Source: Niabella drilacis
Lineage (GTDB): Bacteria > Bacteroidota > Bacteroidia > Chitinophagales > Chitinophagaceae
Reading direction: 5' to 3'
DNA: 64,000 nucleotides
NCBI RefSeq assembly: GCF_900101395.1
Contig: NZ_FMZO01000002.1
Span: forward strand, 1-64,000
Shown here: in pieces, positions 23,454-29,595 of the stretch
How the letters are laid out: every line of letters begins with the position of its first letter
How positions within the stretch are numbered: the stretch's first letter is position 1
Notes under the pieces: generated by a model
The model's database searches: none
What the model was told of the DNA's origin: nothing
Seen by the model: the letters and a program-made list of their open reading frames with translations, nothing else
Made by a program: the position numbers and the translations under genes

Positions 23454-24824
23454 TTATGACTGCTTTCTGAGATGATAGGCCTTGGTTTTCGTAAAAGCCC
23501 GTAATCCCGAATGGGACAGCGTGGCGCCAAACCCTGAATGGTTACGGCCGCTCCAGGGCAATGCCGCACTTACACGGTCGCAGCAATTCCAGTACCCCGT
23601 TCCGGCATCCACCTGTTGCAGAATGGCGGCGGCCCTTTCGGGATCGCTGCTGTATACGGCTGCGGTAAGTCCATATTCCGTATCTTTCATTTGCGCAATA
23701 GCCGCGGCATCATCCTTTACCTTCATAATGCCGATCACCGGTCCGAAGGATTCCTCTTTCATCACGAGCATATCGGCGGTAACATTGGTGAGCACGGTGG
23801 GCTCAAAATAATAGCCTTTTCCTGCTGCTTTTTTCCCGCCGGTGATAATCGTGGCTCCTTTGCGTACTGCGTCTTCGATCTGCCCATTCAGTACGGCGAT
23901 CTGTTCCTTGCGGGTGAGCGGTCCAAAATATACGCCTTCTTCTGTAGGTGCACCGGTTTTCCAGGAAGTCAGTTCCTTTACAAAAGCGTCTACATAGGCG
24001 TCGTATTGGTGCTCATGTACATAGATCCGTTCTACAGAGCAACAGCTTTGTCCGTTATTATAAAATGCACCGTCCGCGGTAGCGGCTGCTACGGCTGCAA
24101 TATCCGCCACATCGGCTGCTACGTACAGCGGATCCTTGCCGCCCAGCTCGCACTGGCAGGGCACCATCTTTGCGGCTACCTTATTATAAATAAAATGCCC
24201 AGTCTTATAACTGCCGGTAAAATAATAACCGTCAAAGGGCATGTCCAGAATGGCAGCGCCTACAGTGCCGGTACCAATGGCTGTAAGAAACAGATCGGAG
24301 TCCAGCCCGGCTTCCTTCCATAGCCGTTCTATTTCCAGCCCTGTAAGGGATGCATATTCCGAGGGCTTATACAACACCGCATTGCCGGCCAGCAAAGCGG
24401 GTACAAATACATTCACTCCCACCAGGTAGGGATAGTTCCAGGCAGAGATATTGGCGATCACTCCCAGGGGTTCATATACGATCCGTTCCTCCATATCGGC
24501 GGTTTCGCTCATCACTTCATCGCCCAGGTATTTAGCCGCATTTGCAGTGAGCCAGCTGATACGGCCAATGGCGCCGCGGATCTCGTTGGCGGATTGGGAG
24601 AGGGGCTTTCCTACCTCACTGGTCAATACCTGCGAAAGGGTGGCGGTATGTGCTTCCAGCAATGCACTGAATTTTTTAACTACAGCGATCCGCTCTTCCA
24701 GCGGGCGCGCCTGCCAGGCGGGCTGGGCCGCTTTCAGCCGCTGCCATTTTTCCCGGAGGCTTTGTGCATTATCTTCTGTAAGGGTTGCGATCCGCTCTTC
24801 TGTGGCGGGATTGATAACTTCCAT
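23454..24824 (-). CDS. Aldehyde dehydrogenase, predicted gamma-glutamyl-aminoaldehyde oxidation
   Basis: The 456-residue NAD(P)-dependent aldehyde dehydrogenase has the general-base Glu226 in CELGGKDP and the catalytic Cys261 in NNGQSCCSVER. NISAWNYP and YFTGSYKTG line the cofactor site. ESFGPVIGIMKV and NHSGFGATLSHSGLRAFTKTK complete the family signature. It is the last gene of the gamma-glutamylation cluster, three bases after the C26 hydrolase stop. The context predicts oxidation of a gamma-glutamyl-aminoaldehyde (gamma-glutamyl-aminoacetaldehyde if ethanolamine is the substrate) to the acid. The reaction class is certain; the substrate is inferred. Confidence 0.92.
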   Translation of the reverse strand: MEVINPATEERIATLTEDNAQSLREKWQRLKAAQPAWQARPLEERIAVVKKFSALLEAHTATLSQVLTSEVGKPLSQSANEIRGAIGRISWLTANAAKYLGDEVMSETADMEERIVYEPLGVIANISAWNYPYLVGVNVFVPALLAGNAVLYKPSEYASLTGLEIERLWKEAGLDSDLFLTAIGTGTVGAAILDMPFDGYYFTGSYKTGHFIYNKVAAKMVPCQCELGGKDPLYVAADVADIAAVAAATADGAFYNNGQSCCSVERIYVHEHQYDAYVDAFVKELTSWKTGAPTEEGVYFGPLTRKEQIAVLNGQIEDAVRKGATIITGGKKAAGKGYYFEPTVLTNVTADMLVMKEESFGPVIGIMKVKDDAAAIAQMKDTEYGLTAAVYSSDPERAAAILQQVDAGTGYWNCCDRVSAALPWSGRNHSGFGATLSHSGLRAFTKTKAYHLRKQS

Positions 24825-24827
24825 GTA

Positions 24828-25523
24828 TTATTTACTTTGTATGGCTTCTAAAAATAGTTCCCTTATTCTTTGGGATGGCGGAGTTTGTTGCAGTCCGAAA
24901 TGATACATCCGTTCCGGGTGCCACTGCACGCATAAGAGGAAGGGATGGCTGCTTGGAGACAGGCGTTCCAGGGCTTCTGCTACACCATCCGGTGCCGTGG
25001 CGGTGATCTGTAAATCCCGGCCAAGGTTGCCGATGGCCTGGTGGTGTGCACTGTTTACGGCGCATAGCTCGCTACCAACGGCCTGGTACAGGATACTATC
25101 GTTTTTAATATGAATACCATGTACTTTATCCCGGCTATTGGCTACTTTATGGACCTCGTTCCGGGCTCCCAGGTCCTGTACGAGGGTGCCCCCATAAATG
25201 CAGTTGATCAGCTGCATGCCCCTGCAGATGCCCAGTACCGGGAGGCCCTGGTCCTGCGCCTGCCGGAAAACAGCGGTCTCAAAAGCATCCCGTTCTTCCT
25301 GGAAATGATCCGGGGCATTGAGGTACCCGTCCTTGCCGGAATAATATCCCGGTGCAATATCCACGCCACCGGATAGCACGATGCCGTCGCAGGCCGCCGC
25401 CGCATCCAGGTTGTTCAGTTCCGCAGAAAGGGTTATTACCTCAATGGCATCATCGCCTTTGAGCCAGCGGGCATAGTTGGCATGTTTGGATTCCGACCCG
25501 GTGTATGTTAATCCGATCTTCAT
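24828..25523 (-). CDS. Class C26 gamma-glutamyl hydrolase (PuuD-like glutamine amidotransferase fold)
   Basis: I start this at ATG 25523 (MKIGLTYTGSESKHANYARW), which fits the family; the open frame further upstream overlaps the dehydrogenase. The 231-residue protein has the class I amidotransferase triad: Cys100 in LGICRGMQL, His202 and Glu204 in VQWHPER. The oxyanion strand LSGGVDIAPGYY and NSAHHQAIGNLG match the gamma-glutamyl-GABA hydrolase (PuuD) group. It should cleave the gamma-glutamyl amide at the end of the pathway and release glutamate plus the amino acid. It is spaced 4 bases from the Fe-ADH and 3 from the aldehyde dehydrogenase. Confidence 0.9.
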   Translation of the reverse strand: MKIGLTYTGSESKHANYARWLKGDDAIEVITLSAELNNLDAAAACDGIVLSGGVDIAPGYYSGKDGYLNAPDHFQEERDAFETAVFRQAQDQGLPVLGICRGMQLINCIYGGTLVQDLGARNEVHKVANSRDKVHGIHIKNDSILYQAVGSELCAVNSAHHQAIGNLGRDLQITATAPDGVAEALERLSPSSHPFLLCVQWHPERMYHFGLQQTPPSQRIRELFLEAIQSK

Positions 25524-25527
25524 GTGT

Positions 25528-26676
25528 TTATAGTGCTTCGAGGTATAGTTGTTTAAAGTTTTCCCTCGAAACCGGTTTGGGGTTATTGGGATGGGCAAAG
25601 TCTGCCAGCGCAAGATCGGCCAGCGTTTCGATATGTGCTTCCCGAACGCCGATAGCCGATAATTTATGTGGGATATGAATGGCGGTATTGAGCTCAAACA
25701 GATAATCCACCACATCCTTACCCGCTGTTCCTGCCAGGTTTAAAGCTCCGGCTATCTTTTTAAATTTCTGTTCCTGTCCTTCAATATTGAAACGCATTCC
25801 GTAGGGCAGGTTTACTGCGTTGGCCAGCCCATGGTGCGTATCCAGCAGGGACGACAGCGGATGCGCCAGTGAGTGCACTACGCCCAATCCCTTCTGAAAG
25901 GCCACGGCGCCCATCAGGGAGGCGATCAGCATTTTACTCCTCGATTCAAGATCCGGTTGGTGCACAGCTGTTGCAATAGATTCACCGATCAGTGAAATGC
26001 CCTGCAGGGCAATGCCATCGCACATGGGATGCTCCATGTTTACCAGGTAGGCTTCCAGGTTATGGGTGAGTGCATCCATACCGGTGGCGGCGGTAATAGC
26101 CGGCGGAATATCCATTGTCAGCAAAGGGTCGGCAAAGACCACCCGGGCCAGCAGCTTGGGCGAGAAGAGGATCTTCTTCTGATGGGTTTCGTCATCGGCA
26201 ATAATGGCGCTGCGGCCCACCTCGCTGCCCGTACCCGCCGTAGTGGGAATGGTAATAAAATGTGGTACATCATTGGTTACATAGATATCACCGCCGATCA
26301 GGTCGTCGTACTTGAACAGGTCTTCGCGGTGATGGATACGCAGTACTATGGCGCGTGCTACATCCAGCGCAGCTCCGCCGCCGATGCCGATAATGGCATC
26401 GCGCTCTGTAGCGTCATATACTTCTGTTCCATTGTATACATCCGATTTTACCGGGTTTTTATGGATGTTGTGAAATACTTCCACCGAGATGCCGCCAGCC
26501 TGAAGGCTTTTCACGATCTTCTTAAAAAAATCCAGCTGTGCAATCACCGGGTCCGTTACGATCAGCGGCCGCGCCAGTGCCTGTTTTTTTAAATAATCGC
26601 CCAGCTCGTTGCTGGCTCCTGCACCAAAGCGGATGGTGGTGGGGAAATTGTATTGATAAATTTTGTCAAATGCCAT
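25528..26676 (-). CDS. Iron-containing alcohol dehydrogenase
   Basis: The 382-residue group III (Fe) alcohol dehydrogenase has a dinucleotide motif GIGGGAALDVARA (residues 97-109), the TTAGTGSE motif (145-152), and four metal ligands Asp201, His205 (GMDALTHNLEAY), His268 and His282. Their spacing equals that of E. coli FucO shifted by five residues. It oxidises an alcohol to an aldehyde with NAD(P). In this cluster it would act on the gamma-glutamylated amino alcohol. It is the first gene after a 253-base gap downstream of the ligase gene, so it may have its own promoter. That gap holds no recognised gene. Confidence 0.93.
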   Translation of the reverse strand: MAFDKIYQYNFPTTIRFGAGASNELGDYLKKQALARPLIVTDPVIAQLDFFKKIVKSLQAGGISVEVFHNIHKNPVKSDVYNGTEVYDATERDAIIGIGGGAALDVARAIVLRIHHREDLFKYDDLIGGDIYVTNDVPHFITIPTTAGTGSEVGRSAIIADDETHQKKILFSPKLLARVVFADPLLTMDIPPAITAATGMDALTHNLEAYLVNMEHPMCDGIALQGISLIGESIATAVHQPDLESRSKMLIASLMGAVAFQKGLGVVHSLAHPLSSLLDTHHGLANAVNLPYGMRFNIEGQEQKFKKIAGALNLAGTAGKDVVDYLFELNTAIHIPHKLSAIGVREAHIETLADLALADFAHPNNPKPVSRENFKQLYLEAL

Positions 26677-26929
26677 TTGGTAAAATTAATTATAAATTAG
26701 TTGTATGATGCGTTAAAAACGATTGTTGATTCATCCGATTATGTATGGGAGATTAATGACGCCTTCGTTATACGGAGGTTTCGTTTGCATAGCAGCATCA
26801 GGCAGACCGTGATAAACAGGCTTATGGCCATCCCCCGATTGGGTGGTGGCTGTTTCAAAAACAGCTTTATAATGCCTTGTCGTTGTGAATTTGTATCGGC
26901 ATCTATTGATTGCTCAATCCCAATATCTT

Positions 26930-28285
26930 TTATATTATCTCAAAATAACGCTTCATTTCCCAGTCGGTCACGGTCTTTAAATGTTGTTTCCATTCCCATT
27001 CGCGGGTGGCCACAAAATGCCCGGTAAATGCTTCGCCGAAGAGTTCCCGGGCTACGGCAGAAGTTTTCATTGCCGCGGTAGCCTGTTCCAGGGTGCGGGG
27101 CAGTACGCCATGCGACTCATCGGTATAACCATTGCCGGTTACGGCATCCTGCAGTTCCAGTTTATGCCGGATGCCATAGAGGCCGGATGCGAGTGCGCCG
27201 GCCATGGCCAGGTAAGGGTTGGCGTCGGCACCGATCACTCTTGTTTCCAGCCGGCAGGCCGTTTCGCTTTGCTGCAATACGCGCAGGGCCACCGTACGGT
27301 TGTCGATCCCCCAGGTAAGGGTCGTGGGCGCCCAGGCACCTTCTACCAGCCGCTTATAGCTGTTGATGGTAGGAGCAAACAGGGGTAAGATCTGTGGCAG
27401 GCAATATAATTGTCCCGCTATATAATGCCGCAGGATGGCGCTCATCTGTTGTTGGTCCCTGCCATTGTAAAATACATTTTTTTTGCCGGCTTTATCCCAC
27501 AGGCTTTGATGCACATGCCCGCCGCAACCCGGAAGCGCTTCATTAATCTTTGCCATAAACGTGGCCATAATGCCGTGCTGATAGGCGATCTCTTTTACCG
27601 CAGTTTTAAAAAGCACCGCACGGTCTGCCGCGGTAAGGATATCGGAATATTCGATGGCAGCTTCGTAAGTGCCCGGCCCGGTTTCGGTATGGATGCCCTC
27701 CAGCGGAATATCAAAATCGCGTAGCTGATCAAACAGCGCGGTAAAAAAACGGTTGTTCAGCGAGCTTCTCAAAATGGAGTAGCCAAACATACCCGGTGTA
27801 AGGGGCGTAAGCTGCTGAAAGCCTTTTTCCGCGGCGGTTTGCGGCGTTTCGGCAAAATTAAACCATTCAAATTCCTGTGCGGCGTAGGGTTTAAATCCCT
27901 GTTGCAAGGCATCATTCAGTACTTTTTTTAAAAGCTGGCGCGGACAAACAGCAGCGGGAGCGCCCTTGCTGTCGGTGATCTCGCCCAGGAAAAAAGGCAG
28001 CCCGTTCTCCCAGGGGATCCTGCGGAAGGTATGGAGGTCGATCCGTGCAGGTGCATCCGGATAGCCCGTGTGCCAGCCGGTATAGCCACAGTTGTTATAG
28101 GATACGTCGCCGGAATCCCAGCCGAAGATCACATCACAAAAAGAGGTTTCTTTTCCTGCAATGCCCAGGAATTTTTTTGCAGAAATATATTTTCCGCGGA
28201 GGATGCCGTCAATATCCACGTAGGCGATCTTTACCTTCCCAGATTCGTGGTTTTTAACATATTGTAAAATGTCTTTTGTAGTCAT
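26930..28285 (-). CDS. Glutamine-synthetase-family ligase (gamma-glutamyl-amine synthetase type)
   Basis: The 451-residue protein has the glutamine synthetase fold: metal-binding Glu residues in AAQEFEWFNF and HTETGPGTYEAAIEYSD, His in GCGGHVHQSLW, the glutamate flap region NSYKRLVEGAWAPTTLTWG, and ADANPYLAMAGALASG. Its length and the WGIDNRTVALRV motif place it with GlnA3/GlnA4/PuuA/IpuC ligases that couple glutamate to an amine using ATP, not with housekeeping GlnA. It overlaps the permease gene by 4 bases (ATGA). Beside an ethanolamine-permease homologue, gamma-glutamylethanolamide synthetase is the most likely activity (inference). Confidence 0.88.
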   Translation of the reverse strand: MTTKDILQYVKNHESGKVKIAYVDIDGILRGKYISAKKFLGIAGKETSFCDVIFGWDSGDVSYNNCGYTGWHTGYPDAPARIDLHTFRRIPWENGLPFFLGEITDSKGAPAAVCPRQLLKKVLNDALQQGFKPYAAQEFEWFNFAETPQTAAEKGFQQLTPLTPGMFGYSILRSSLNNRFFTALFDQLRDFDIPLEGIHTETGPGTYEAAIEYSDILTAADRAVLFKTAVKEIAYQHGIMATFMAKINEALPGCGGHVHQSLWDKAGKKNVFYNGRDQQQMSAILRHYIAGQLYCLPQILPLFAPTINSYKRLVEGAWAPTTLTWGIDNRTVALRVLQQSETACRLETRVIGADANPYLAMAGALASGLYGIRHKLELQDAVTGNGYTDESHGVLPRTLEQATAAMKTSAVARELFGEAFTGHFVATREWEWKQHLKTVTDWEMKRYFEII

Positions 28286-29595
28286 AGCGATTTCTTGTAA
28301 AAAAGGCTGAATAAAATGTAGCTGATGAGCAGCAGGCCAAGGTAAACCAGGGCCAGCCTGAAGTTGTAAATGATCACGGCAATAAAAGAGATGCAGGCCA
28401 GGATCAATGCCACCAATGGAAACAACGGATAAAAAGGCACTTTGAAGGGCCGCTCCAGCGAAGGCTCTTTCCGGCGGAGCCGGATCACGGCGATCATGGA
28501 AATAATATAGAGTGTGAGCGCTCCAAATACGGAAAGGATAATGATCTCACCGGTCTTTCCGGTCAGCAAAGCAATGATGCCTACCACCATGTTTGCAATA
28601 AGCGCATTAGACGGGGTCTGAAACCGGCGGTTTACTTTTCCCAGCCATTGTGGCGCAAAGCGGGCTCTTCCAAATTCGAAGGAAGACCGGCCGGCCGCCA
28701 GGATGATACCATGAAAGGAGGCTACCAGTCCGAAGAGTCCCACGGTGATCAGCATATGGTACAGGAAAGCATTATTGGTCACAATATGCGATAAGGCCAG
28801 CGGCAGCGGAGAATCCGAGGTAGCGCCATCCTTTGTGTATACCACGGCCTCCCAGCCTGCAACGCCTACCGAGCTGATAAAGGTGAGCGCGCAAAGCACC
28901 ACCAGTGTAAAAATGGCCGAACCGAATCCTTTTAAAATGGTGCGCTGCGGATTCCTGGTCTCTTCCGCTACGTTGGCAATACCTTCAATGCCCAGGAAGA
29001 ACCAGATGGCAAAGGGGATGCTGGGGAAGATGCCGGCCCATCCCGCGGGCAATGCATTCTTTTTAAGATGGGCTGCATCAAAATGAGGCAGGGTTATACC
29101 GGCAAACAACAGCAGCTCGCCCACGGCCATAATCGTGATGATGAGCTCAAAAGCCGCAGCGGCCTTTACGCCGGAAATATTGAGCGCGGTAAAAATAATG
29201 TACACCGCAATGGCAATGCCCAGTACGGGTAGCTGGGGAAAGAATAAATTAAAATAGGCGCCAATGGCAAACGCGATCGCCGGCGGGGCAAAAATGAATT
29301 CAATGCTTTGCGCCATGCCTGCCAGAAAAGCCAGGTCTTTTCCAAGGGTACGGTTGGCATAATCAAAGGCCCCTCCGGCCTTGGGAATGGCGCAGGCAAG
29401 CTCTGTATAGCTAAAGGTAAAGGCCACATACATCAGGGCAATGAACAGGGTGGCAATACCCATACCCAGGGTGCCTCCTTTTTCAAGGCCCAGGTTCCAG
29501 CCGAAATACATTCCCGAAATAACATAGCCTACCCCAAGGCCCCACAACATGGTGGCATTAAGCGTTCTTTTTAACTGCTGTGCAGGATTCGTCAT
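28282..29595 (-). CDS. APC-superfamily permease, ethanolamine-permease type
   Basis: The 437-residue membrane protein has about twelve hydrophobic segments. The N-terminus WGLGVGYVISGMYFGWNLGL and the stretch MYVAFTFSYTELACAIPKAG match the ethanolamine permease branch of the APC superfamily as I remember it. WFFLGIEGIANVAEETRNPQ is the usual loop after helix 6. It should import ethanolamine or a close amino alcohol with protons. It is the first gene of the cluster and overlaps the ligase gene by 4 bases, so uptake and gamma-glutamylation are coupled in expression. No clear TAnnTTTG lies upstream, which may mean regulated transcription. Confidence 0.85.
   Translation of the reverse strand: MTNPAQQLKRTLNATMLWGLGVGYVISGMYFGWNLGLEKGGTLGMGIATLFIALMYVAFTFSYTELACAIPKAGGAFDYANRTLGKDLAFLAGMAQSIEFIFAPPAIAFAIGAYFNLFFPQLPVLGIAIAVYIIFTALNISGVKAAAAFELIITIMAVGELLLFAGITLPHFDAAHLKKNALPAGWAGIFPSIPFAIWFFLGIEGIANVAEETRNPQRTILKGFGSAIFTLVVLCALTFISSVGVAGWEAVVYTKDGATSDSPLPLALSHIVTNNAFLYHMLITVGLFGLVASFHGIILAAGRSSFEFGRARFAPQWLGKVNRRFQTPSNALIANMVVGIIALLTGKTGEIIILSVFGALTLYIISMIAVIRLRRKEPSLERPFKVPFYPLFPLVALILACISFIAVIIYNFRLALVYLGLLLISYILFSLFYKKSL

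Follow-up and report, generated by a model that had tools for sequence, protein, structure and literature searches.

The DNA analysed here is a stretch of 64,000 nucleotides from Niabella drilacis (RefSeq assembly GCF_900101395.1, contig NZ_FMZO01000002.1, positions 1 to 64,000; hereafter the window). On its minus strand, from 29595 to 23454, five genes follow one another in the order permease, glutamine-synthetase-like ligase, iron-containing alcohol dehydrogenase (Fe-ADH), Peptidase_C26-type hydrolase and aldehyde dehydrogenase (ALDH), with a 4-base overlap between the first two and then gaps of 253, 4 and 3 bases (Table 1), an arrangement that an earlier note on the window had described correctly. 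These genes, which are presumably co-transcribed, probably serve the B12-independent catabolism of ethanolamine by gamma-glutamylation. The pathway itself is already known from other bacteria (Chromohalobacter, Phaeobacter and Streptomyces). What looks new is a matter of lineage rather than function: the Bacteroidota ligase appears to belong to a branch apart from the characterised ethanolamine ligases, a point that goes beyond the earlier note.

Ethanolamine, which derives from phosphatidylethanolamine, is a common source of nitrogen and carbon. In the proposed route the permease would import ethanolamine, the ligase would join it to glutamate using ATP, the Fe-ADH and then the ALDH would oxidise the glutamate-tethered alcohol to the acid, and the C26 hydrolase would cleave gamma-glutamylglycine to glycine and glutamate, the latter being recycled. 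The glutamate tether would hold the reactive aldehyde, and ethanolamine ammonia-lyase, B12 and a microcompartment would not be needed. Each reaction and each substrate is read from sequence comparison; gamma-glutamylation of some amino alcohol is very probably the chemistry, and ethanolamine is likely to be the main substrate. If so, a considerable share of the Bacteroidota would be credited with a B12-free route (the operon form, with ligase beside permease, occurs in 24 of 147 Chitinophagaceae genomes and in 24 of 345 genomes of a class-wide sample), a likely misannotation as 'glutamine synthetase' would be put right, and two ligase lineages serving one substrate would offer a natural comparison.

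Table 1. Position of the five genes and of the longest gap between them in the window
Feature	Position	Strand	Length	Family
APC-family permease, predicted ethanolamine importer	28282-29595	-	437 aa	TIGR00908
Glutamine-synthetase-like gamma-glutamyl-amine ligase, predicted gamma-glutamylethanolamide synthetase	26930-28285	-	451 aa	PF00120
Intergenic gap, ligase/Fe-ADH	26677-26929	-	253 bases	
Iron-containing alcohol dehydrogenase, predicted gamma-glutamylethanolamide dehydrogenase	25528-26676	-	382 aa	PF00465/PF25137
Peptidase_C26 / class-I glutamine amidotransferase (GATase)-type hydrolase, predicted gamma-glutamylglycine hydrolase	24828-25523	-	231 aa	PF07722
Aldehyde dehydrogenase, predicted gamma-glutamyl-aminoacetaldehyde dehydrogenase	23454-24824	-	456 aa	PF00171

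Conservation of the five-gene order

A scan for the ligase, with one genome per species, returned at least 597 candidate stretches, at least 579 of which encode a relative; the best 80 (L001-L080) were taken further. The order permease, ligase, Fe-ADH, C26 hydrolase, ALDH is present in 48 of these 80 loci, and all five genes occur in 39 of the 56 that have enough flank on both sides, which argues that the arrangement is not due to chance. Nearly all of the best loci (77 of 80) are labelled Bacteroidota, including Chitinophaga, Pedobacter, Flavobacterium, Aquirufa, Emticicia, Olivibacter and many metagenome-assembled genomes; the other three comprise two entries of 'uncultured bacterium' and one of Beijerinckiaceae. 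Among named relatives Niabella pedocola (L001) comes closest, with a ligase 93% identical to that of the window. Truncation or rearrangement accounts for the remaining loci, and in a few cases the ligase is solitary or adjoins other genes. At three Emticicia-type loci (L052, L054 and L066) the ligase adjoins an ATP-grasp-like protein (a weak Pfam match, below cut-off), and on its opposite side lies a GntP-family permease or a homologue (one of each was scanned).

The ligase and its active site

The ligase matches PF00120 (Gln-synt_C) at 333 bits, stays under the curated cut-offs of the GlnA, GSIII and PuuA models, and reaches no NCBIfam cut-off. Compared with Escherichia coli GlnA, 12 of 16 checked positions are identical, including metal, ATP and arginine positions. 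Differences are confined to D50 (Asn64 in the window), Y179 (Phe167), N264 (Pro252) and E327 (Trp318). The replacements of E327 by W318 and of Y179 by F167 are each found in 27 of 27 Bacteroidota ligase rows, and the ammonia-site glutamate (E327) is likewise missing from other gamma-glutamylamide ligases. In Streptomyces GlnA4, F331 stands in for E327 and Y179 is replaced, changes reported in PMC6529630 as making room for a larger amine. The residue changes of the window ligase would likewise suit an amine substrate larger than ammonia. An ordinary glutamine synthetase was considered and is ruled out by the replacement of E327. The earlier note had all catalytic residues present, which stands for the dehydrogenases and the hydrolase (see below) and has to be qualified for the ligase at the positions just given.

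A single further PF00120 match in the genome lies on contig C29. An AlphaFold model of the ligase (mean predicted local distance difference test score 79.8) confirmed the glutamine synthetase fold only, and its two best solved matches were 11zs and 5dm3, the latter being Csal_0679 of Chromohalobacter salexigens. We take Csal_0679 to be the ligase of the pathway in that species because its gene number neighbours Csal_0678, which is named as a homologue of the ethanolamine-binding protein EtoX in PMC10132767, where Vetting et al. are cited for the pathway in C. salexigens and Agrobacterium.

A separate ligase lineage

A tree of 58 ligase rows contained PuuA as an outgroup on a long branch; PuuA was therefore dropped and a tree of 38 rows built (22 rows in all removed and 2 added). 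In the 38-row tree, and in the same way in the larger one, the window ligase is separated by a branch with 100/100 support from Csal_0679 and from all proxies in the tree for the ligases of EtoX-type operons (those of C. salexigens, Agrobacterium and Phaeobacter sp. MED193) and for GlnA4. The known-clade side holds Csal_0679, 11zs and the EtoX-type and similar ligases (Paracoccus denitrificans, Marinovum, Ruegeria, Sinorhizobium, Paraburkholderia), together with ligases from loci with a short-chain dehydrogenase/reductase (SDR; Embleya, Nonomuraea, Arthrobacter, Meiothermus) and three Bacteroidota ligases (L135-L137). SCO1613 stands outside the tree, and the Embleya ligase serves as the proxy for GlnA4 because its cluster has a ligase, an ALDH, an SDR, a permease and a C26 hydrolase, like the published Streptomyces cluster. 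On the window side lie the other Bacteroidota ligases and proteins of Photobacterium, Legionella, Burkholderia, Paracoccus versutus, Rhodobacteraceae and rhizobia; two proteins annotated as ipuC (by annotation only) also fall on this side, where they form a separate clade together with an Agrobacterium ligase. Identity to the window ligase is 47.0% for Photobacterium, 46.8% for Burkholderia and 46.1% for Legionella, and, in one alignment, 40.0 and 41.5% for the annotated ipuC proteins, 34.8% for L135 and 34.6% for Csal_0679. An approximately unbiased test gave p = 0.00026 and is not used, as it shifted only the window ligase and that of L001 into the known clade and thus also split the Bacteroidota clade.

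Four ligases (L149:3462-4676(-), L152:6338-7381, L153:3963-5033(-) and L154:6575-7648) form one sub-clade with no permease adjoining; beside each lies an open reading frame of 348-405 aa without a Pfam match, the four frames being 51-74% identical, and the pair is possibly another gamma-glutamyl or peptide-forming system.

Dehydrogenases and hydrolase

The residues that we take to be catalytic in the remaining enzymes, from what is known of their families, are fully conserved: the metal ligands D201/H205/H268/H282 of the Fe-ADH in 67 of 67 rows, E226 and C261/C262 of the ALDH in 59 of 59, and C100/H202/E204 of the C26 hydrolase in 52 of 52. The Fe-ADH forms one clade (100/100) with the Fe-ADHs of EtoX-type operons, Legionella and Photobacterium, to the exclusion of E. 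coli EutG, FucO and YiaY and of the second Fe-ADH of the genome, in a small tree with just four outside Fe-ADHs, all on long branches. The association of ligase, ALDH and Fe-ADH also occurs in Sinorhizobium meliloti, Ruegeria conchae, Legionella lytica and a Photobacterium, and the family that supplies the alcohol step varies from module to module, with an Fe-ADH, an SDR or a GMC oxidoreductase nearby.

The ALDH matches PF00171 (Aldedh) at 419 bits. Searched with phmmer, it scores 266-302 bits with 14 of the 18 ALDHs from fetched ligase loci outside L001-L080, compared with 193 bits for PuuC and 147 bits for AldB; the other four of the 18 are an Arthrobacter SDR-type ALDH at 198 bits and three beside ipuC genes at 193, 189 and 104 bits (the last a cut-off frame). 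The hydrolase matches PF07722 at 159 bits and is weakly related to PuuD, its nearest solved relatives by sequence including Lin1909 and PuuD.

The permease and its genomic partners

The window permease scores 454 bits against TIGR00908, the 'ethanolamine permease' model, whose cut-off of 381.75 was passed by none of 14 control genomes. It is the sole copy found in its genome at E <= 1e-60, where three other PF13520 permeases are present. Among 147 Chitinophagaceae genomes there are 46 TIGR00908 places in 45 genomes, and within 3.5 kb of these lie eutB (18 places), the ligase (25), neither (3) or both (0); all 45 permease-bearing genomes carry eutB or ligase. Seen from the other side, 18 of the 20 eutB loci fetched (from 23 EutB genomes in the family) have a permease match at most 2 kb from eutB, and eight of eight that were scanned pass TIGR00908.

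Related permeases are also found with ligases of the known clade. The permeases of L135-L137 lie outside the eutB-linked group and among the relatives of the window permease, next door to a known-clade ligase, and L135 and L136 also have an SDR (77% identical to each other), an ALDH and a GATase hydrolase. In the Embleya (Streptomycetaceae) cluster, a known-clade ligase, ALDH, SDR and C26 hydrolase accompany a TIGR00908 permease at 488 bits. A permease of the corresponding S. pristinaespiralis cluster, placed in S. coelicolor, almost doubled biomass on ethanolamine according to PMC6529630.

Relation to ethanolamine ammonia-lyase

The absence of eutBC and of microcompartment genes from the window, which the earlier note had pointed out, extends to the whole 6.1-Mb genome, where we found no match to EutB, EutC or the bacterial microcompartment shell, the E. 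coli control being detected each time. Within Chitinophagaceae the operon form and eutB were not found together (0 of 147 genomes; 24 carry the operon form and 23 eutB; P = 0.011 in a post hoc hypergeometric test uncorrected for kinship). The class-wide figure, 0 of 345 with 24 and 11 carriers, is uninformative (P = 0.45); this sample includes five genomes of the window's own family with the permease, and its searches scored at most four candidates per genome, so that copies may be missed.

Six Bacteroidota genomes (G050, G229, G248, G385, G387 and G474) encode a longer EutB-like protein, with open frames of 772-796 aa and scores of 428-449 bits; the one such locus examined (L128) has no EutC or permease match nearby.

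Choice of substrate and role

We regard ethanolamine as the likeliest substrate because the window permease passes the TIGR00908 cut-off, related permeases lie near eutBC, and close relatives of the permease sometimes stand with a known-clade ligase module. These same three points argue against another small amino alcohol (3-aminopropanol, alaninol/isopropanolamine, serinol or 4-aminobutanol) being processed by the same chemistry to beta-alanine, alanine, serine or GABA, a reading that we consider unlikely, though it has evidence of its own. The ligase lies outside the known ethanolamine-ligase clade and is closer by identity to the annotated ipuC proteins than to Csal_0679, the eutB-linked permeases group separately, and the NCBIfam model that scores highest with the Fe-ADH, although below its cut-off, is that of 4-hydroxybutyrate dehydrogenase.

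The well-supported separation of the ligase is one of several observations that weigh against ethanolamine catabolism. The eutB-linked permeases form a group of their own (84/100, on a long branch, in a tree rooted on the very long PuuP branch) and score 480-522 bits, compared with 241-462 bits for the ligase-linked ones; the two sets may differ in specificity. The simple expectation that ligase and EutB are anticorrelated is ruled out (P = 0.44): both occur in 4 of the 147 Chitinophagaceae genomes, EutB alone in 19, the ligase alone in 34 and neither in 90. No ligase stands next to the permease in the four genomes that carry ligase and EutB together, and over the whole family 14 of 39 ligase places have no TIGR00908 permease adjoining. 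Class-wide, 48 permease places divide into 24 beside the ligase, 5 beside eutB and 19 beside neither. Of these last 19, 12 belong to genomes that carry the ligase elsewhere and 7 to genomes in which neither gene was recognised (L135-L141, the first three adjoining a known-clade ligase); the neighbourhoods of L138-L141, two of them on short contigs, gave no match beyond the permease to eight queries (the window's five proteins and E. coli EutB, EutC and EutH). The D50 column holds Asp in 22 of 27 Bacteroidota ligases and Asn in the window, at a place where the alignment is unsure, and was not used.

Two further observations on the same side concern the role of the ligase. Of the 47 full-flank relatives with both dehydrogenases, 8 have no C26 match, so that the pathway called complete in the earlier note is complete in the window, where all five genes are present, and less uniformly so among its relatives. 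Window-side ligases also occur in other settings, with aminotransferase/DMFase neighbours, in a rhizobitoxine-like cluster or beside unknown proteins. The missing hydrolase, together with related ligases that lack a permease, lie beside unknown proteins or occur in EutB-positive genomes, would fit a role in nitrogen storage, amine detoxification or the synthesis of a gamma-glutamyl compound, in an operon not meant for ethanolamine as a carbon or nitrogen source. Such a role is extremely improbable in view of the importer within the operon and of the five-gene order, with both dehydrogenases and the hydrolase, in 39 of the 56 full-flank loci.

For the catabolism of ethanolamine, then, the logic and the substrate proposed in the earlier note gain comparative support from the permease family, the eutBC-linked permeases, the exchange with known-clade ligases and the shared Fe-ADH lineage, although the pathway is not new. 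As to its history, we lean towards a second gamma-glutamyl-ethanolamide ligase lineage in the Bacteroidota, which would have been recruited apart from GlnA4/Csal_0679 and combined with the Fe-ADH lineage of the proteobacterial operons, with a family of ethanolamine permeases as the constant element, combined in each case with eutBC, with the module of the window-type ligase or with the GlnA4-type SDR module.

Comparison with known systems

The gamma-glutamylation route for ethanolamine, treated in a review (PMC9397018), was named in the earlier note for Streptomyces, where the product of GlnA4 was demonstrated in vitro (PMC6529630). In Phaeobacter sp. MED193 the operon reads RpiR, hydrolase, EtoV, EtoW, EtoX, ligase, ALDH, alcohol dehydrogenase, and proteins of the Phaeobacter operon rise on phosphorylethanolamine (PMC10132767). 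Plasmid 1 of Paracoccus denitrificans PD1222 and pMaD4 of Marinovum match this order (the Marinovum regulator was not classed), and the last gene of both operons is annotated as an iron-containing or class IV alcohol dehydrogenase, on which basis the Phaeobacter alcohol dehydrogenase would also be an Fe-ADH. The suggestion of the earlier note that an operon joining Fe-ADH, ALDH and hydrolase might be undescribed finds no support in the form given there, in view of these two operons. The idea that the Fe-ADH makes the pathway new was likewise ruled out, ligase modules with an Fe-ADH being found in Paracoccus, Marinovum, Ruegeria, Sinorhizobium, Legionella lytica and Photobacterium. We found no report of the route in Bacteroidota in searches of an open-licence library, a scope that misses most subscription journals.

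EtoX-type operons share with the window the ligase, ALDH, alcohol dehydrogenase, hydrolase and a dedicated importer, and need no B12. They differ in that the importer is a TRAP system (EtoVWX) rather than a TIGR00908 permease, the hydrolase is of the N-formylglutamate-amidohydrolase type (PF05013 in Paracoccus) rather than C26, the regulator is of the RpiR type, and the ligase belongs to another clade. In Sinorhizobium meliloti the importer of this type of operon is instead an APC permease with TIGR00907 as its best NCBIfam match (below cut-off), unlike the TIGR00908 match of the window. The Streptomyces GlnA4 cluster SCO1610-SCO1615 (PMC6529630) has in common gamma-glutamylation, an ALDH, a glutamine-amidotransferase-type hydrolase and a permease (the one in the comparable Embleya cluster passes TIGR00908); it has an SDR in place of the Fe-ADH and its own regulator, and the Embleya ligase belongs to the known clade, not to that of the window. 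The short eut operon of other Chitinophagaceae (permease plus eutBC) has a related TIGR00908 permease and presumably the same substrate, but uses B12-dependent ammonia-lyase chemistry and has no match in the window's genome.

The Puu and Ipu pathways use the same glutamate tether, with a ligase, an ALDH and an amidotransferase-type hydrolase. A polyamine or alkylamine route of this kind, with the Fe-ADH replacing the oxidase or monooxygenase step, would explain the ligase, ALDH and C26 families in common with Puu and the ligase, dehydrogenase and amidotransferase logic in common with plasmid ipu clusters. Both pathways, however, include an amine oxidase or P450 step, and no oxidase, P450 or ferredoxin is found among the five genes of the operon; the Fe-ADH requires an alcohol. 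The PuuA model gives the ligase 216 bits against a cut-off of 650, and the ligase lies outside the annotated ipuC clade. Against the window permease, E. coli PuuP scores 55 bits and full-length ligase-linked copies at least 513 (two contig-end fragments score 75 and 451). A polyamine or alkylamine substrate is on these grounds very improbable.

Surroundings and additional loci

The flanks of the operon seem unrelated to it, with DUF445 and MatE genes on one side and a divergent prmA on the other, and no tRNA was found in the window. The 253-base gap contains no long open reading frame on the sense strand and, compared by eye with the close relative L001, is dissimilar save for about 35 bases preceding the Fe-ADH start; neither the gap nor the region upstream of the permease matches a strict Bacteroidota -33/-7 pattern. 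The start of the C26 gene was taken as the ATG at 25523, in a frame that is itself open from 25715, and the family scan used a version two codons longer (24828-25529).

Two plasmid loci, L084:9-10741 (Rhizobium) and L097:880-8359 (Paraburkholderia), carry an aminotransferase, a pyridoxal phosphate-dependent transferase, a fatty acid desaturase, a C26 hydrolase, a LysE exporter and a glutamine-synthetase-like ligase. They presumably resemble rhizobitoxine genes joined to a gamma-glutamyl module, and their two ligases belong to different clades.

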